From: Hymenobacter norwichensis DSM 15439
Lineage (GTDB): Bacteria > Bacteroidota > Bacteroidia > Cytophagales > Hymenobacteraceae
Direction: 5' to 3'
Assembly (NCBI RefSeq): GCF_000420705.1
Contig: NZ_ATVL01000006.1
Coordinates: 62,001-126,000, forward strand
Length of the DNA stretch: 64,000 bases
The position numbers and the translations under genes were made by a program. The notes under the pieces are model-generated. The model searched no databases, was not told where the DNA came from, and was given only the letters and a program-made list of their open reading frames with translations. Shown in pieces: positions 55,817 through 64,000 of the stretch; position 1 is the first letter of the stretch, and every line of letters begins with the position of its first letter.

Positions 55817-57064
55817 TTACATCTTGTATAGCAGCGCAATACCAAACGACAACGAGGTCAGAATCAGGCCGACCATGAAGATGGTGTAACTGATGCGGAG
55901 CAGCCGGTATTTACGGGTCAGCACGTCGCCAAGGTAGTAGATGTCCGTTACCATGTTGGTGTAGAGCGCCTCTTTCTCACCCATAATCTGGTTCATGCCC
56001 GCGTGGAAGTCATCGAGGCTCAGTTTGCTGAAGTTACCGAAAAACAGCAGGTTCACGCGGCGGTTGGTGGCAATCTGGGGGCTCTTTTTCAGCCACTTAA
56101 AGCTGGTTACGTCGGGTTGGGCACACAAAATGGCCGTTACCACCGAGCCCAGCGCCGTAGCCAGCAGCAGCCCAATTGGTATAGTAAGCACCGGGTTGTT
56201 CATGATAGTGGGGCTAAGCACGCCCGATTTGGTGCCGGCCTTGGCCCCCAAGTAGGTGATGATAACTGAGAGCAGCACCGCATTAAGGCTAATCATCATG
56301 TTGGCCTTTTTATCGGCCATGTCTGAAAGCTTCATGTGGTTGCTATACATGGTTCGAAACATAGTTTCGATACCGCGCTTGGGCTCGGCGAAGGTGCCGG
56401 TAGCTTCCTCTTCTTTCTTCTTTTTCTTTTTCTCGGTTTTCTTCAGCAGGTCGCGCTGCTCTTTCAGGTTGGCTTTGAACTGCTCCCCGTAGCGGGCTTT
56501 GGCTTCCCGGGTATGAAACTTAGCCGATAGCAAAAAATCCAGCTGCGACTCGGCCCATTCCACGTTGGAGTAAGTTTTGCCCAAAGTGGTTTCCCACTCG
56601 GCACGCAGCAACTCGGCATTGGCAAAAAAATCCTCGCGGCCCATGCCGCTCATGTCGGCATCTTGGAGCAACTCTTGCAGCTCGGTTTCGGAGGGCTCGT
56701 CGCGGTGTGTGCACCGGATGGTATCGGTTACCACCTGAATACGGGGCTCGGGGTAGCCTTGCTGGCGCAGCCATTGCTCGGCAATGGCCATGCTGCGGTA
56801 CTCGTGCCCGTCGTTTACTTCAATGTAGCCCGTGTCGTGAAACCAGGCGGCCAGCAGCAGCGCCTCCTGGTCGGGAGCTTCTAGGCCGGCATCTTCACCG
56901 AGGGTGCGGGCCTCTTTCACTACCGTAACGGTATGCTTCAGCGAATGATAAACCAGCTGCGGTGGAAGCTTCTCTTCCAGCAACTGCGTGACGTAGGCTT
57001 TAGCCTGTTTCAAGATTTCTGATTTGCCGGCCTTGGCCGGTTCGAGCGTTTCCGTGGGTTCCAT
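55817..57064 (-). CDS. HD-domain protein fused to a Pycsar-effector-like transmembrane module
   Basis: This 415-residue protein starts at ATG 57064; a TTG 66 bases upstream is in frame. N-terminal HD phosphohydrolase domain: H40/H44 region in YHSLKHTVTVV, H76-D77 in AAWFHDTGYIEV, H87 in DGHEYRSMA, and D135/D137 in LLQDADMSGMG. A Lys-rich linker (~210-222) precedes the C-terminal PycTM-like region MYSNHMKLSDMADKKANMMI followed by TM helices at about 257-275, 291-314 and 391-412. PycTM is the effector of Pycsar antiphage systems, where a cyclic pyrimidine nucleotide triggers membrane damage. Here the HD part could degrade such a signal, or act as its sensor; no cyclase gene is adjacent. The role in defence is inference. 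Confidence 0.8.
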   Translation of the reverse strand: MEPTETLEPAKAGKSEILKQAKAYVTQLLEEKLPPQLVYHSLKHTVTVVKEARTLGEDAGLEAPDQEALLLAAWFHDTGYIEVNDGHEYRSMAIAEQWLRQQGYPEPRIQVVTDTIRCTHRDEPSETELQELLQDADMSGMGREDFFANAELLRAEWETTLGKTYSNVEWAESQLDFLLSAKFHTREAKARYGEQFKANLKEQRDLLKKTEKKKKKKEEEATGTFAEPKRGIETMFRTMYSNHMKLSDMADKKANMMISLNAVLLSVIITYLGAKAGTKSGVLSPTIMNNPVLTIPIGLLLATALGSVVTAILCAQPDVTSFKWLKKSPQIATNRRVNLLFFGNFSKLSLDDFHAGMNQIMGEKEALYTNMVTDIYYLGDVLTRKYRLLRISYTIFMVGLILTSLSFGIALLYKM

Positions 57065-57315
57065 TCGAATTACTGGGGATGAGCGACGGGAGCGGGGCGG
57101 CGTCCCCAACCAACTTTGAACGCGAATCAAACGCTGAGGTTTTTTACCTTTTGCCTGAACCGTGAATGGTAGCTTTGCGTACGGCAGGCACTATGGCCTG
57201 CCAAAGCTCGGGGCACCCGTTTCAGGAAGTTACTCGTATTTCCCAATAACTACGGCCTAGCCTCAACGGTTCAGATACCATTAACCTGCTTGCACTTTTT
57301 TACTACTGCCTCTTT

Positions 57316-60300
57316 ATGAAGCGTATTTCCTTGTTTTGTGGTTTGCTTTGGACGCTAGGCGCTGCCCCAGCATGGGCACAAAAAACCACACAGACTCCGC
57401 ACCCCATCCGCCCAAACTACAACCACGGCGGAGAAAACTGGGAGTCGAAAACACCGCCCGACACTTCCCACATTCGCTATACCGTATTTTTGATTGGCGA
57501 CGTGGGCAAGCCCATTGCGGCCGATAAAGGCGGGGAACCATCGTTGAATTTCCTGCGCAAGCAGATTATGGCGACTGGCTCCAAGAGCACTACCATCTAC
57601 CTCGGCGACAATATATACGAGTACGGTATGCCCGAAGAGGGCGCCCTTGACCGTAAGGAGTCGGAGCGCCGCATTGTTGACCAGCTGGATATCCTGCGCA
57701 ACTACGCCGGCGAGAAATATATGATTCCGGGCAACCACGACTGGAAACAGGGCCGCAATGGTGCCGTGGAGCAGGTGAACCGGCAGCAGCGGTTCGTGGA
57801 AAACTACATGACCAACGATTCGGCGGCGTTTTCCTACACTGGCGACTTTTTTATTCCGCGGGATGCCTGCCCTGGCCCATTTGAGGTGCGTTTGCAGGAC
57901 AACCTAGTGATGATTGCCATCAACTCGCAGTGGTTTTTGCAAGGCGAAGCCGAGCGGCCGTACGGGGCCAACAGTGGTTGCGGGGTAGCCAACGAAACCG
58001 ACTTCTTTACACAGCTCGAGGACATTATTGAGCGCAACAAAGACAAGAACATCATGGTGGTGGCGCACCACCCAATCCAGTCCGATGGCATTCACGGGGG
58101 CTACTTCACGCTAGGCGACCATATTTTCCCGCTCTCCATCGTGTACAAGTACGCCTTCCTGCCGCTGCCGGTGATTGGGTCGGTGTACCCGTTTGCGCGC
58201 AAATACGGCGGCATCTCGCAAGACATTCCGCATCCGCTGTACCAGGCGTATAAAAAGGGGCTGGAAGACATCTTTGCCAAGCACCCGAACATTGTGTACG
58301 CCTCGGGCCACGAGCACAATTTACAATACTTCAAAACGCCCACTTACCACCAGATTGTGAGCGGCTCGGGCTGTAAAACCCAGCACACCCGCTCGGGCAG
58401 CGGTGCCGATGCCATGTTCTCCGACAAAGAGAAAGGCATTGCCCGGGTGAACTACTACGACGACGGCGAGGCCTGGGTGGAGTACTACATTCCGAACGAC
58501 CAAGGCGAAACAGCCCGCTTGGTGTTCCGCACGCCACTGTACGCCCAGCCCCTAGTGACTGATGCCCAAGCGGCACCAGTACCCACAGGGCCGCGGCCCA
58601 ACTTCAAAGACAGCACCGTAACGCTAGCCGTAAACCAGCGCTACGCCGACCGGAGTGGTATTCATAAGGCGTTTTTCGGTAAACACTACCGCCAAGAGTG
58701 GGCCACGCCGGTGAAGTTTCCGGTGCTGGACTTGGCCACCGAGAAAGGTGGTCTGACGCCGTATAAAATTGGCGGTGGCAAGCAAACAGCTTCTCTGAAA
58801 GTACGCAATGAAGAAGGGCGTCTCTTCACCATCCGTAGCCTCAACAAAGATCCGTCGGCCGTGTTGCCCGAAGCTCTTCGCTCCGGCGCCGCCGCCGACA
58901 TTCTGCAAGACCAGATTTCGGCGCAGCACCCGTATGCCTCGCTAGCTATTCCGCCGCTGGCTACGGCAGCAGGTATTCTGCACACCAACCCCGAGCTACG
59001 CTTTGTACCGCAGGACCCGTTGTTGGGCCAGTACCTCAATCGATTCTCGAACACACCCGCTGCTCTTGAGGAAGACGCCAACGAAAACCAAAGCAACGTA
59101 GCTTCCCTTGGCAACGCCAAAAATCTGGTGGGCACCGACAAAGTGTTTGAGCGCCTAGTGCAAGACAACGATAACCGCGTAGATGAAAAAGCCTTTGCCC
59201 GCTCGCGCCTCTTCGATATGTGGATTGGCGACTGGGACCGGCACGAAGACCAGTGGCGCTGGGCCGAGAAAAAAGACAAAGACGGTGACCGGAAATTCAC
59301 GGCCGTGCCCGAAGACCGGGACGTAGCTTTCTTTAAGGGCGACGGTATCTTCCCGTATTTGGCGTCGCGCAAGTGGGCCATCCGCAATTTCCAGAATTTC
59401 GGGGCGGATTATGCCGACTGGAAAGGCCTCAACCTGACCGCCCTCAGCAACGACCGGGTGTACTTGGCTTCCGTGACCAAAGAGCAGTGGGTGAAGCAGG
59501 CCGAAGACATGAAAGCGTCGCTCACCGACGACGTAATTGAAAAGGCGTTCAAGCAGCGCTGGCCCAAGCAGATTTACGACCAGCACGGCCCCGAAATCAT
59601 AGCCAAGCTGAAAAGCCGCCGCGACTTGCTGCCCCAATTGGCCGCCGACTACTATGAAGTGGTGAGCAAGGTGACCGAGGTGAAAGGATCTAGCAAGCGC
59701 GAAAAGTTTGTGGTAGAGCGCTTGCCCGACGATAAAACCCGCGTGACGGTGCGCAAAATCACCAAGGAAGGCGCGCTAGGCAAAACGCTCTTCGACCGTA
59801 CCTTCGACAACAAAGTAACCAAGGAACTGCGCCTCTACGGTTTCGAGGGCAACGACGTGTACGATGTGAAAGGCGACGTGAAGCGAGGCACCAAAGTTCG
59901 CATCATTGCCGGCACCGACAAAGACTCCATTACTGACCGCTCCAACGTAGCGGGCTTCCGCCACTACACGCATATTTATGATGCCGACACTGGCAATGTG
60001 ATAACGCCGGGCCGCGACACGCGCCTGCGTACCGAGCCGGGCATTGATGTGAGCCGCTATGACGTGCACAACCGCTCCGACCGCAAAGACTATACTCTGA
60101 ACTACTTCGGCCCCACGGCCTACTTCGGCTACAACATTGATGACCGGGTATTTGTAGGCGGGGGCGCGGTGTACCGTACCTACGGCTTCCGCAAAGAGCC
60201 CTACGCCACCGAGCAAAGCTTGGCCGCCAACTACTCACCTTCGCAAAGTGCTTACAACGTGCGCTACCTGGGGCACTTTGTGGATGTGTTTGGCAAAACT

Positions 60301-61206
60301 GATTTACGCGTGACGGCTCAGCTTTATGGTCCGCAGCTACTCTACAACTACTTCGGCTCCGGCAACGACACGCGTAATATTCTGGCCGACGACACCGATG
60401 CCCGCAACCGTGACATCAACGACACTTACCGGGTGCGTTTCTCGCGCCTGTATATTTCCCCGGTGCTGGAACGTGATGTGTTTAGCTTCCTGAAAGTGGG
60501 TATCGGCCCGCAGTACGACCAGTTTCGGGTGGATGCTAACCAAATCGGTAGCGAGATTCGCAACGGGCTCGACGCCAGTGGTAACGGGGTGAGCGGTGCC
60601 GGTTTAGGTATTCGTTCCTCTGACTTTCAACTGAACCGCTACCTTGGGGCGCGGGGTTACCTGAACATCGACGCGGCTTCGTCGCCGAAGAACCCACGGA
60701 TTGGATTACGTTGGTATAACTCGGTGGAGTACAACCACCAGCTCAATGCCGAGAAGCTGCAGTACGGCCGGTTAGCCTCCGAATTTCGCTTCTATTTAAG
60801 CCCCAACTTCCCATTCCAACTCACCTGGGCTGGCCGCATTGGAGCCGCTCGCAACCTTGGCGACTACCGTTTCTACCAGGCCAACACGCTGGGCGGTACC
60901 ACCAATCTGCGCGGCTACCGCCGCACGCGCTATGCGGGCCGCTCCAGCGCCTTCGCCAACGCCGAGGTACGGATTCAGCTCTTCGAGTTCAACGCCTATT
61001 TGCTGCCCGGCAAGTTCGGTATCATGGGTCTGGCCGATGCCGCCCGTGTGTTCTCGCAGTACGACGTGAAAACCGGCCTTAAGGCCTACCATACCGCCTA
61101 TGGTGGAGGTGTGTGGGTGGATATTCTCAAGCAGGCCGTTGTCAATGTCACCTACTCACAGGGCGAAGAAAACTTGGTGTTCCTAGGTTTCGACTTCCTG
61201 TTTTAA
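57316..61206 (+). CDS. Metallophosphatase, kinase-like region and beta-barrel fusion
   Basis: This 1296-residue protein has a signal peptide (ISLFCGLLWTLGAAPAWA). A calcineurin-like metallophosphoesterase domain (~52-370) follows with IYLGDNIYEYG, IPGNHDWKQGR, MVVAHHP and YASGHEHNLQYF. A middle region (~430-800) holds IGDWDRHEDQW (D639-W-D641-R-H643) and then VPEDRDVAFF (D667/D669), a spacing like the catalytic D-x-x-x-x-N/DFG pair of atypical kinases (Fam20/HipA-like). The last ~400 residues form a barrel with alternating strands ending in NLVFLGFDFLF, typical of BamA-like outer-membrane domains. A cell-envelope phosphate hydrolase or signal-processing role is inferred. The kinase-like reading is mine and needs fold comparison. 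Confidence 0.8.
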   Translation: MKRISLFCGLLWTLGAAPAWAQKTTQTPHPIRPNYNHGGENWESKTPPDTSHIRYTVFLIGDVGKPIAADKGGEPSLNFLRKQIMATGSKSTTIYLGDNIYEYGMPEEGALDRKESERRIVDQLDILRNYAGEKYMIPGNHDWKQGRNGAVEQVNRQQRFVENYMTNDSAAFSYTGDFFIPRDACPGPFEVRLQDNLVMIAINSQWFLQGEAERPYGANSGCGVANETDFFTQLEDIIERNKDKNIMVVAHHPIQSDGIHGGYFTLGDHIFPLSIVYKYAFLPLPVIGSVYPFARKYGGISQDIPHPLYQAYKKGLEDIFAKHPNIVYASGHEHNLQYFKTPTYHQIVSGSGCKTQHTRSGSGADAMFSDKEKGIARVNYYDDGEAWVEYYIPNDQGETARLVFRTPLYAQPLVTDAQAAPVPTGPRPNFKDSTVTLAVNQRYADRSGIHKAFFGKHYRQEWATPVKFPVLDLATEKGGLTPYKIGGGKQTASLKVRNEEGRLFTIRSLNKDPSAVLPEALRSGAAADILQDQISAQHPYASLAIPPLATAAGILHTNPELRFVPQDPLLGQYLNRFSNTPAALEEDANENQSNVASLGNAKNLVGTDKVFERLVQDNDNRVDEKAFARSRLFDMWIGDWDRHEDQWRWAEKKDKDGDRKFTAVPEDRDVAFFKGDGIFPYLASRKWAIRNFQNFGADYADWKGLNLTALSNDRVYLASVTKEQWVKQAEDMKASLTDDVIEKAFKQRWPKQIYDQHGPEIIAKLKSRRDLLPQLAADYYEVVSKVTEVKGSSKREKFVVERLPDDKTRVTVRKITKEGALGKTLFDRTFDNKVTKELRLYGFEGNDVYDVKGDVKRGTKVRIIAGTDKDSITDRSNVAGFRHYTHIYDADTGNVITPGRDTRLRTEPGIDVSRYDVHNRSDRKDYTLNYFGPTAYFGYNIDDRVFVGGGAVYRTYGFRKEPYATEQSLAANYSPSQSAYNVRYLGHFVDVFGKTDLRVTAQLYGPQLLYNYFGSGNDTRNILADDTDARNRDINDTYRVRFSRLYISPVLERDVFSFLKVGIGPQYDQFRVDANQIGSEIRNGLDASGNGVSGAGLGIRSSDFQLNRYLGARGYLNIDAASSPKNPRIGLRWYNSVEYNHQLNAEKLQYGRLASEFRFYLSPNFPFQLTWAGRIGAARNLGDYRFYQANTLGGTTNLRGYRRTRYAGRSSAFANAEVRIQLFEFNAYLLPGKFGIMGLADAARVFSQYDVKTGLKAYHTAYGGGVWVDILKQAVVNVTYSQGEENLVFLGFDFLF

Positions 61207-61304: not shown

Positions 61305-61427
61305 GTGAGGAGGTAATCCGCAGGTGAGAACATGCATAAAAAACCGGGCGTGCGGCTCAGCCTTTTTAGCAACGCACCCGTTAAGACCAAACAGTTCAAC
61401 GATTACCAAATTTTGACTTTGAAGCGT

Positions 61428-62588
61428 ATGCTGGTTTTTAGTTGTATGTGGGCGCGTGCGGTGCGCAAATCGGTGTTGGGCGTAGGGGGCTTGCTACTGG
61501 CCGTGTCTGCTGTGGCACAGGTAACACCGGCCTCGCCAACACCGGTATTTCCGGCCCCGGCTCCGCCCCGTGGCGACACCCTCGCTACCGACCAAGTAGG
61601 CCAAGACCAGGAGTTTGCTACACCTTCCGTTGTAAACCAAGGACCCACCAAGGGCATCGTTTTTCACTACGAGCGAATGCCCACGTTTGGAGTTACCTCT
61701 AAAGCGCAGGTTGCCAACCTACCCAACTACTCCGCCGACGCCGAGAAAAACGCCCGGCTCATCATCAAGGGCTATATCCCGATGCTCAATCACCCTCACC
61801 TGAAGCTGATTTTAGGGGTGAACTACGAGCGGGAAGAGTTTGAATTCAAGAACACGCCTACCCGCTACGAGTTGTACGACAACATCGAGAACAAGGGCTT
61901 GAAGACGTTGGGTGCGCAGCTGGCGGTTATCCGGCCGGTGAATACCGTGAACTGGTATATCTTCCGTATCAAGGGGGAGCTAAGCGGCGACTATACCTCC
62001 AACGAGTTGAACGTGAGCGACTATCTCCGGGTATCGTCGGAGTTCATCTATGGTTGGAAGCGCAGCCCCACGTTCTCATGGGGGGTAGGGGCACAGCTGG
62101 GCTACACCTTCGGCCGACAGAGTATTTATCCGGCGGTGCTCTACAACCGCACCTTCAACTCGCGCTGGGGCCTGGAAGCTCTGTTTCCGGCCCGCGTATC
62201 AGCCCGCTACAACGTGTCGCCGAAGTCCATCTTCACGGCTGGCTATACGGTTGATGGCTTCAACTACATCGTGAAGCTGAACACGCCGCTGGTGCGCCGT
62301 ACCGCCGATGGTACGCCCGAGCCCAATATTAAGCCGTTGCGCACCTTAGAGCTACGCGAAACTGAAGTAAAACTCCGGGGCCGCTGGGAGCGGGAACTGT
62401 ACGACTTTATTTGGCTGGGCGTAGAAGGCGGCTACCGCTACAACTATGCCTTCGATGCCTTCGATAAAACCAACAGCGACCGGCAGAAAATCATTGATAG
62501 CCAGTTCGATTGGGCCCCCTACGCCAGCTTGGAAATATTCATTGTGCCCACTAAAGGCCTGTTGGGCATGTTTGGGGTGGGGCGCTAA
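61428..62588 (+). CDS. DUF6268-like outer-membrane beta-barrel protein
   Basis: This ~386-residue protein starts at ATG 61428; an ATG at 61446 would also give a good signal peptide (WARAVRKSVLGVGGLLLAVS). A Pro-rich segment follows, and the barrel begins near GIVFHYERMPTFGV. Strands such as LKLILGVNYEREEFEF, TFSWGVGAQLGYTFGRQ and SRWGLEALFPARVSARYNV and the end GLLGMFGVGR fit the DUF6268/outer-membrane barrel class. Function unknown. Confidence 0.8.
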   Translation: MLVFSCMWARAVRKSVLGVGGLLLAVSAVAQVTPASPTPVFPAPAPPRGDTLATDQVGQDQEFATPSVVNQGPTKGIVFHYERMPTFGVTSKAQVANLPNYSADAEKNARLIIKGYIPMLNHPHLKLILGVNYEREEFEFKNTPTRYELYDNIENKGLKTLGAQLAVIRPVNTVNWYIFRIKGELSGDYTSNELNVSDYLRVSSEFIYGWKRSPTFSWGVGAQLGYTFGRQSIYPAVLYNRTFNSRWGLEALFPARVSARYNVSPKSIFTAGYTVDGFNYIVKLNTPLVRRTADGTPEPNIKPLRTLELRETEVKLRGRWERELYDFIWLGVEGGYRYNYAFDAFDKTNSDRQKIIDSQFDWAPYASLEIFIVPTKGLLGMFGVGR

Positions 62589-62677: not shown

Positions 62678-64000
62678 CTACTCCTTTTCTGCCAGCTTTT
62701 TGGAACGCTTACGACCAAGCTTTTTCAGGTAAGCATAGGTGTCGGACTGGGCCCGGACTTGCGGCGCGTTGGGCGAGTCGGCTGACAAGAAGTTGTTCTG
62801 CCAATCGCGGGACTTTACGTTGTCTTGGCGTTGCAGGTCGAGCAGATGGCGGACTTCCTTGCGTAGGTCGTCTTGCAGAATCGGGAAAGCCACTTCCACC
62901 CGGCGGTCCAAGTTGCGCGCCATCCAGTCCGACGACGCCACGTAGATTTTCTCTTCGCCGCCGTTGCCGAACACGTACACGCGGGCGTGTTCCAGGTACC
63001 TATCCACGATGCCGCGCTGGCTGATGTTGCTGCTCTGGCCCGGAACGCCCGGTATTAGGCACGAAATGCCCCGAATCAGTAGTTCCACCCGCACGCCGGC
63101 CTCACTGGCTTCGTAGAGCTTCAGAATCATCCGGTCATCTTGCAAAGCATTCAGCTTCAGGATAATGTAAGCATCCTGCCCTTGTGCGGCCAGCTTTATT
63201 TCGTGGTCGATGAGGGCGTTGAGTTTCTCGCGCAACTCGAACGGCGCCACCAGCAGGTGCTGGAAGCTGCCGGTTTTGTCTTGCCGGTCGGAGAAGTAGC
63301 GGAACACTTCGGCCACTTCGCTGGTCAGGCGCGGGTCGGCAGTGAATAGGCCGTGGTCGGCGTAAATCTTGCTGGTATTCTCGTTGAAGTTGCCAGTGCT
63401 TAGGTAGGCGTAGAGATGGTTGTGGCCTTCTTCGGCCCGCGTAACCAAGGCCAGCTTGCTGTGCACTTTCAGTTCTGGAATACCATAAATGACGTTGGCG
63501 CCGGCCTTTTGCAGCTTCTCGGCCCAATACATATTGCTTTCCTCATCGAAGCGGGCCTTCAACTCCACCACCACCGTTACCTGCTTGCCGTGCTTCACAG
63601 CTTTCAGCAGCGCCTTAGCCACTTCACTCTTACTGGAAACCCGGTACAGCGTGATGCTGATGGCGCTAACCAGCGGGTCGTTGGCGGCTTCCAGCAGAAA
63701 GCGCGTCACGTAATCGAAGGGCTGGTAAGGCAGGTTCAGCAGATGGTCGCGCTCGGCAATGGCAGGCAGCATGGCGCCAGTGCGGGGCAGCGTGGGATGG
63801 GGCAGGGGCGTGTGTGCTTCGTACACCAAGTTGGTTAGTCCGAAGGTTGGGAAACCGAAAAAGTCGCGGAAGTTGTGGTAGCGGCTGCCTTCTACCAGTT
63901 CATCCTTGCCAATGCCGGTTTTGTGCATCAGGGCTTTCATGGCCTCTTTGGGCATGGTAGGGTCGTAGAGCAGGCGAGCGGGGTAGCCGGTTTCGCGCTT
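62678..64000 (-). CDS. ppk1: Polyphosphate kinase 1, C-terminal part (N-terminus outside window)
   Basis: The frame stays open to the window edge at 64000, so the N-terminal part is missing; about 440 residues are present. Motifs include the PLD-like catalytic segment LKVHSKLALV (autophosphorylated His region), YLSTGNFNENTSKIYADHGLF, LIRGISCLIPGVPGQSSN and IYVASSDWMARNLDRRVEV. The enzyme reversibly makes polyphosphate from ATP in the membrane or cytoplasm. A Lys/Arg-rich C-terminus (KLGRKRSKKLAEKE) ends the protein. Confidence 0.95.
   Translation of the reverse strand, partial: KRETGYPARLLYDPTMPKEAMKALMHKTGIGKDELVEGSRYHNFRDFFGFPTFGLTNLVYEAHTPLPHPTLPRTGAMLPAIAERDHLLNLPYQPFDYVTRFLLEAANDPLVSAISITLYRVSSKSEVAKALLKAVKHGKQVTVVVELKARFDEESNMYWAEKLQKAGANVIYGIPELKVHSKLALVTRAEEGHNHLYAYLSTGNFNENTSKIYADHGLFTADPRLTSEVAEVFRYFSDRQDKTGSFQHLLVAPFELREKLNALIDHEIKLAAQGQDAYIILKLNALQDDRMILKLYEASEAGVRVELLIRGISCLIPGVPGQSSNISQRGIVDRYLEHARVYVFGNGGEEKIYVASSDWMARNLDRRVEVAFPILQDDLRKEVRHLLDLQRQDNVKSRDWQNNFLSADSPNAPQVRAQSDTYAYLKKLGRKRSKKLAEKE

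Follow-up and report, generated by a model that had tools for sequence, protein, structure and literature searches.

A predicted fusion of a metallophosphatase, a kinase-like domain and an Omp85-type barrel in Hymenobacter norwichensis

Introduction

Two groups of described proteins come closest to the one considered here. In PlpD-type patatin-Omp85 proteins (type Vd), an enzyme domain, a POTRA domain and a 16-stranded Omp85 barrel are joined in one chain, and protein-kinase-like folds comparable to that predicted below occur in CotH kinases (PF08757; Bacillus cereus structures 5jd9 and 5jda), CtkA, HipA/HipT, type II phosphatidylinositol 4-kinases (PI4-kinases II), which are eukaryotic lipid kinases, and Fam20C-type secretory-pathway kinases, which are animal Golgi kinases. 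This report concerns a gene in a 64,000-nucleotide stretch of DNA from Hymenobacter norwichensis DSM 15439 (contig NZ_ATVL01000006.1, positions 62,001 to 126,000; hereafter, the window), whose product, hereafter the fusion protein, combines a metallophosphatase domain, a kinase-like middle domain and an Omp85-type barrel in one open reading frame (ORF; Table 1). An earlier note on this DNA had interpreted the product as a phosphatase-kinase-porin fusion on the cell surface, an interpretation that is partly supported by the present analysis. It is, on balance, somewhat probable that the fusion protein is an outer-membrane-anchored, periplasm-facing phosphotransferase/phosphatase with a kinase-like domain whose nearest structural relatives are CotH and PI4-kinase II.

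The fusion protein shares with PlpD the order of enzyme and 16-stranded barrel within one chain, but carries a phosphatase and a kinase-like domain instead of patatin, and an all-beta linker where PlpD has its POTRA domain. In the accessible parts of open-licence PubMed Central (PMC) papers, no description was found of a phosphatase-kinase-Omp85 fusion or of this kinase-like family, and in the available text of an Omp85 survey (PMC4104836) a term search for metallophosph, calcineurin, phosphatase and kinase returned no occurrence. OMP76 of Riemerella, likened to TonB-dependent receptors in the part of its description that was available (PMC10281475), is unrelated. In our reading, the fusion protein adds a new family to a known fold, that of kinases, and sets it in an outer-membrane architecture that is likewise new.

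Table 1. Features of the fusion gene and its neighbours in the window (coordinates are those of the window)
Feature	Residues	Coordinates	Strand	Basis or remark
Whole fusion gene: signal peptide, metallophosphatase, kinase-like domain, beta linker domain, Omp85-type barrel	1-1296	57316..61206	+	1,296 amino acids
Signal peptide	1-21	57316..57378	+	Charged start, hydrophobic core, A-W-A|Q; read by eye from the sequence
Calcineurin-like metallophosphatase domain	about 53-412	57472..58551	+	PF00149, motif conservation, standalone homologue in the same genome
Predicted protein-kinase-like fold	about 467-781	58714..59658	+	AlphaFold model, CotH Z 14.7, Foldseek HipT/HipA, profile comparison with controls
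Glycine-rich loop (GGLTPYKIGGGKQTASL), candidate nucleotide-binding loop	478-494	58747..58797	+	
K511, candidate ATP-phosphate lysine	511	58846..58848	+	Conserved in 70/74
E585, candidate helix-C-type glutamate	585	59068..59070	+	Conserved in 73/74
Catalytic-loop motif D-W-D-R-H-x-x-Q-W-x-W	639-649	59230..59262	+	
Candidate metal-binding motif P-x-D-R-D	665-669	59308..59322	+	Aligned with CotH IPWDYD
All-beta domain between kinase-like domain and barrel	about 786-910	59671..60045	+	Secondary structure of both models
16-stranded Omp85-superfamily barrel	930-1296	60103..61203	+	Model, TamA match, NF047779 match
L-R-G-Y in loop 6, between strands 11 and 12	1198-1201	60907..60918	+	Loop of low model confidence
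HD domain and PycTM transmembrane domain (divergent neighbour)		55817..57130	-	
DUF6268 protein between fusion gene and PPK1		61332..62588	+	PF19783 over cut-off
Polyphosphate kinase 1 (PPK1)		62678..64000	-	Runs off the window

Results

The kinase-like domain

The fusion ORF starts with ATG, and every motif listed in the earlier note was found in place within its 1,296 residues. In a Pfam scan (E ≤ 1), Metallophos was the sole match to the fusion protein, with none to patatin, CotH, HipA_C (PF07804) or Fam20C (PF06702), and the NCBIfam scan returned an Omp85 match at residues 1126-1296 that remained below its cut-off, together with two weaker matches; the middle domain was covered by no model of either collection. 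Conservation was followed in 74 members of the family (non-redundant at 70% identity, fusion protein included). Of 182 matching ORFs, the three in which only part of the domain is matched had been dropped beforehand, and the members were drawn from the remaining 179. Scanned one by one with Pfam and NCBIfam, these members gave no consistent family for the middle domain. The weak Pfam matches were scattered among Fam20C (one member, E 0.00069), CotH (one, E 0.015) and HipA_C (two, best E 0.2), as well as unrelated families, for example EnY2 (two members, best E 0.014). Four of five plasmid relatives are annotated as 'hypothetical protein' and the fifth bears no annotation.

The middle domain very probably has a protein-kinase-like fold, as the earlier note had suspected, and this is supported by a confidently predicted model, by fold matches that exceed the stated background, by the conservation of kinase-like motifs and by a calibrated profile comparison. 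An AlphaFold model of residues 416-916, built from 81 sequences (the fusion protein and 80 close relatives), reached a predicted local distance difference test score (pLDDT) of 82.3 and a predicted template modelling score (pTM) of 0.83. Its best structural match was B. cereus CotH (5jd9; Z 14.7 over 249 residues at 3.9 Å, model residues 52-366), with which PI4-kinases II (Z 13.1-14.2) are tied under the rule of the structure-comparison tool; these were followed by CtkA (Z up to 13.2), by HipA, PI3K and LepB (each at most 10.7) and by a Golgi casein kinase of the Fam20 type (Z 10.4). The background stated for this tool is a typical best Z of 7-8 where there is no clear match, and higher for mostly helical models. 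The alignments fall mostly within the kinase region rather than the all-beta part that follows it, and by structure comparison the predicted model has a two-lobed kinase fold, the matches to CotH, PI4-kinase II, CtkA and HipA extending over about 205-270 residues. The fold search proposed in the earlier note as a check returned a kinase-like domain and not just a periplasmic beta domain. In Foldseek, HipT and HipA were the top matches (E 6.1e-4 to 8.5e-4), and CotH was not among the best 50 matches listed. The earlier note had pointed to HipA and Fam20C; the nearest structures are instead those of CotH and PI4-kinase II. HipA was rejected as the closest relative, since the structure aligner ranks CotH, PI4-kinase II and CtkA above it and its profile score is at background, and the domain was not filed as HipA, CotH or Fam20C.

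The motifs of the middle domain are conserved far beyond chance. Among the 74 members, D639 is found in 72, W640 in 69, D641 in 66, R642 in 71 and H643 in 62, followed by Q646 (68), W647 (73) and W649 (72) in the same loop and by P665 (67), D667 (67), R668 (67) and D669 (65) in the second motif. The sequence GDWDRH begins at residue 638, its D-W-D-R-H occupying positions 639-643, and this pentapeptide, whose conservation the earlier note had wished to see checked, is retained across the members save for evidently altered ones. The same note had seen possible kinase active-site motifs in the two Asp motifs. Sequence alignment with CotH and CtkA supports this. The glutamate of EDRD, which begins at 666, is not conserved (R in 52/74, E in 2/74). 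Within the first motif, D641-x4-Q646 stands where CotH and CtkA have D-x4-N; the segments NFDGFVHN and IPWDYD of B. cereus CotH align with GDWDRHEDQ and VPEDRD of the fusion protein. B. subtilis CotH loses its activity when either Asp228 or Asp251 is substituted (PMC7821199); by motif and spacing, these residues would correspond to D641 and D667. The candidate residues of a nucleotide and metal site (glycine loop, lysine, glutamate, the Asp of D-x4-N and the metal Asp) are all present and conserved in sequence, except that Gln stands for Asn.

Profile comparisons point in the same direction. The best of nine Protein Data Bank (PDB) matches in a sequence-profile search was CtkA (E 0.16), in register at LLGNFDRHNGNW and sharing GNFDRHNGNW; PI4-kinases II, for all their structural similarity, are absent from the nine. 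A profile-profile comparison with CotH gave a score of 35.8 (p 5.4e-4), with the D-x4-N/Q and the P-x-D-x-D loops each aligned in register. Two accepted families of the kinase fold, CotH and HipA, scored 41.3 against each other, and the controls (profiles of the phosphatase, of the barrel and of 15 neighbour families, and two reversed alignments) at most 24.3. When the ten most altered loci were excluded (64 rows), the CotH score was 34.7 (p 8.2e-4).

All nine kinase-type sites that were scored (Gln or Asn being accepted at 646 and Arg or Lys at 642) are kept in 61 of the 74 members. Losses are clustered in the same members, with a variance of 2.93 vs. a permutation mean of 0.60 and none of 10,000 permutations as high, in a test that ignores shared ancestry. 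Among the four kinase-like copies of the H. norwichensis genome, D641 is present in two and replaced by Gly in the paralogue L002 and by Ser in one standalone copy. The pattern resembles that of an enzyme family from which pseudoenzymes have been derived. It is plausible that the domain of the fusion protein is catalytically active.

The metallophosphatase domain and the barrel

The N-terminal domain has the features of a calcineurin-like metallophosphatase, namely a family model over cut-off (PF00149 Metallophos, residues 56-264, 27.4 vs. 21.5 bits) and metal-ligand motifs, which start at residues 61 (GDVG), 97 (GDNIY), 139 (GNHDW), 248 (VVAHHP) and 330 (SGHEHN). Each of these five motifs is present in 48 to 54 of the 55 phosphatase domains scored, all of them spanning at least 250 residues. 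The motif pattern resembles that of purple acid phosphatases, an identity that was not adopted, the PDB sequence match being not significant (E 0.32).

The barrel-type C-terminus described in the earlier note is real, but it appears to be of the Omp85 type rather than a porin. A model of residues 770-1296 (77 sequences; pLDDT 74.6) contains 16 strands and carries L-R-G-Y in loop 6, the position of the Omp85 signature; the combination of a 16-stranded C-terminal barrel with (V/L)-R-G-(F/Y) in loop 6 is thus found, in a model with a pTM of only 0.60. TamA was the closest structure (Z 21.9), then BamA and FhaC (20.7), CdiB scoring 19.8, and the best 50 matches listed are all Omp85-type proteins or mitochondrial relatives, for which reason the porin interpretation is not favoured. 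NF047779 (Omp85_fam) matches with E 9.8e-24, yet below its cut-off (84.6 vs. 200 bits). The linker is all beta in both models, without POTRA-like helices, so that the POTRA domain characteristic of Omp85 proteins was not recovered. Omp85 members lacking an N-terminal extension are described in the accessible portion of PMC4104836.

Distribution and domain architectures

The middle domain was found in 112 of 296 Bacteroidota genomes (E ≤ 1e-5). The close-relative set comprises 80 loci kept of 175 confirmed relatives, of which 79 belong to Hymenobacter and one to Solirubrum, the closest being 98% identical over the middle region. In the other 95 loci, 51 ORFs have the phosphatase-middle-barrel arrangement, 33 have middle and barrel, and 18 consist of the middle domain alone, with four of phosphatase alone and three of barrel alone; these counts include the H. 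norwichensis locus itself and a few same-genus loci and count overlapping loci repeatedly, and some middle-barrel ORFs at contig starts (e.g., L089) may be truncated. Once overlaps are removed, the 18 standalone middle domains amount to 14 distinct genes. A quick tree of 74 kinase-like domains shows 10 changes of architecture vs. a shuffled mean of 31.8, a count made approximate by long branches and the unsure label of L089. Among viral contigs, 13 pattern matches yielded no confirmed relative.

The H. norwichensis genome also contains genes for another full-length copy (33% identity), for two standalone middle domains in divergent orientation and for a standalone phosphatase. In two loci, L157 and L158, middle domain, phosphatase and barrel are three adjacent separate genes, and there the kinase-like protein and the phosphatase bear lipobox-type signals according to a simple pattern search. 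In L158 (3749-7894), ABC-2 exporter genes precede this set and a gene for an MgtE magnesium transporter follows it, with homologous neighbours in L157 (1541-5529). Short standalone kinase-like proteins of 426-433 amino acids occur in L161-L164 (family f7); they have an N-terminal transmembrane-like stretch and keep the catalytic-type motifs, and the profile match stops before the all-beta linker. The standalone phosphatase and the two standalone kinase-like ORFs of H. norwichensis lie within about 15 kb (L175, 1578-17555). One of these kinase-like ORFs has a lipobox-type signal, and a DAGK-type lipid kinase and an APP1 phosphatidate phosphatase are found nearby. A lipid-kinase interpretation derived from this cluster was kept as a lead only, APP1 recurring in one of two other same-genus loci. 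CotH-family genes (PF08757) lie within a few kb of a middle-barrel gene in two genomes (L119/L260 in G019 and L269 in G070), and the H. norwichensis genome itself has one CotH-family match, in a 575-residue open frame (G000:C6:556484-557497).

Discussion

Proposed activity and alternatives

In the arrangement favoured here, the Omp85-type barrel would anchor the secreted chain in the outer membrane, and the linker, the kinase-like domain and the metallophosphatase, which stand before it, would most likely lie in the periplasm. A nucleoside triphosphate or another phosphate donor might be held between the glycine loop, K511, E585 and the metal-binding D667 and D669, with D641 in D-R-H-x-x-Q driving the transfer of phosphate (or of a nucleotidyl group) onto a protein, lipid or glycan of the envelope, and the fused phosphatase could dephosphorylate the same substrate or process its product or donor. 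A modular design of this kind is supported by the standalone kinase-like and phosphatase ORFs of the H. norwichensis genome and by the three adjacent genes of L157 and L158. If active, such proteins would bring kinase-type chemistry and its reversal to the Gram-negative outer membrane, where no supply of adenosine triphosphate (ATP) is known, in the 112 of 296 sampled genomes. They form a family of kinase-like proteins whose catalytic-type residues are conserved and which the copies of Pfam and NCBIfam used here miss, provide defined residues to mutate and extend the enzyme cargo of Omp85 barrels beyond patatin.

Several observations weigh against a periplasmic phosphotransferase/phosphatase. 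The periplasm is not known to hold ATP. The kinase-fold model was built on 81 close sequences (66-98% identity), the top six Foldseek matches have low TM-scores (0.21-0.28 of the query) at root-mean-square deviations of 9.5-15.4 Å and include JAK2 pseudokinases, an unrelated PDB chain (E 0.17) is level with CtkA in the profile search, and the profile score against HipA is at background (19.9, p 0.09). The Asn of the catalytic loop is replaced by Gln, and at least one of the nine sites is lost in 13 of the 74 members (two or more in ten, one in three). In H. norwichensis itself, none of the five phosphatase motifs is kept in L002, which also reads F-G-K-H for W-D-R-H, and the Ser already mentioned stands in place of D641 in one standalone copy.

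An alternative reading is that of a kinase fold that does not transfer phosphate but instead AMPylates, glutamylates or merely senses a ligand, and thereby regulates the phosphatase or the barrel. The fold is known to host other chemistry, as in SelO and SidJ, Gln occupies the Asn position in 68 of 74 members, and the ten members that have lost two or more sites are all middle-barrel ORFs that keep the barrel. The joint presence of loop glycines, lysine, glutamate and Asp motifs in 61 members is, however, what a nucleotide- and metal-dependent enzyme should show, and this explanation is considered rather unlikely, if worth keeping in mind. A role in assembly or translocation, in which the kinase and phosphatase folds would serve mainly as a periplasmic scaffold replacing POTRA domains, accounts for the proximity of the barrel to TamA and BamA, for the linker in the usual place of POTRA domains and for two ORFs in which the match to the middle profile is confined to its last part (the divergent L166) or to about two thirds (L167) and which retain the barrel. 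It does not account for the strong constraint on catalytic-type residues of both enzymatic domains in most members or for the 18 standalone middle-domain ORFs that have no barrel, and appears highly improbable.

The side of the membrane is a separate matter. The surface location proposed in the earlier note would require the barrel to act as a type Vd-like secretion pore that places the phosphatase and the kinase-like domain outside the cell, where an external source of ATP or polyphosphate might be available. Omp85 relatives of the two-partner type do translocate proteins, and the barrel resembles two of them, FhaC and CdiB, with the scores given above; on the other hand, an Omp85 barrel has its N-terminal start at the periplasmic face. 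A PlpD-like protein of Bacteroides fragilis is protease-sensitive on intact cells, according to the available part of PMC4319957, whereas the passenger of the prototype, the patatin domain of PlpD, is reported to reside in the periplasm (PMC11116518, in the portion accessible). Because of this last result, the enzymatic domains of the fusion protein are more likely, by analogy, to face the periplasm, and display at the surface is regarded as unlikely.

The gene neighbourhood was surveyed in 60 chosen loci, each at most 19.6 kb long and taken from 23 family codes with about one locus for every genus (some shortened by contig ends, with family names taken from one representative per cluster). 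PPK1 lies near the fusion gene in 13 of them, in 9 of the 23 family codes; if chance placed it there in 0.5-1% of loci, the nominal binomial probability would be 5e-18 to 3e-14, shared ancestry being ignored. In a bolder reading, periplasmic phosphotransfer would be carried out across the phylum by a machine whose Omp85-borne kinase and opposing phosphatase use polyphosphate made by the linked PPK1, not ATP, as donor or substrate. If this were true, a kinase embedded in the outer membrane would phosphorylate where ATP is absent; we regard it as a very unlikely, speculative extension. PPK1 is out of range in 47 of the 60 loci, it never lies near the gene in the loci of family f7, which is well sampled, and PP_kinase matches are missing altogether from at least four genomes that bear the domain; the first and last of these observations also count against the periplasmic phosphotransferase/phosphatase in general. 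A presence/absence link is uninformative, PP_kinase being found in 267 of the 296 genomes. In 20 genomes picked by eye, PPK1 was 12-15 kb away in 12 (all of family f23) and 7 kb away in one, while in four the typed copy was 0.3-2.1 Mb off and in three it was on another contig.

Other neighbours of the fusion gene

Genes other than PPK1 also recur among the 60 loci. SdiA-regulated/phytase-like propellers are present in 29 (22 plus 7 loci for the two clusters); in the larger cluster, 20 of the 22 ORFs are located upstream in the same orientation, and 20 of the 22 are less than 500 bp from the gene. A SixA-like phosphatase was found in nine loci and PAP2 in seven. HD-family ORFs occur in 40 of the 60 loci (18 family codes), and in 10 of the 40 they are short and possibly lack PycTM. 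Taken together, the HD protein, the phytase-like propeller and, in some cases, PPK1 point to phosphate or polyphosphate, and we infer that the fusion protein may be linked to the metabolism of one or the other.

In the window, the divergent neighbour combines an HD domain with PycTM, a Pycsar effector domain, and is the sole PycTM match in the H. norwichensis genome. An anti-phage interpretation based on this neighbour was set aside: PADLOC gave no match to the fusion protein at E ≤ 0.01, and HD-family genes were judged too widespread for a typical defence island. DUF6268, located between the fusion gene and PPK1, was matched by tblastn in 47 of the 80 close-relative loci and, among the other 95 loci, in the H. 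norwichensis locus only. In seven of the eight f23 loci among the 60, a class III cyclase-TPR gene adjoins the fusion gene; in L265 (5984-7939) and similar f23 loci, this class III nucleotidyl cyclase with TPR repeats has weak matches to the Pycsar cyclase PycC.

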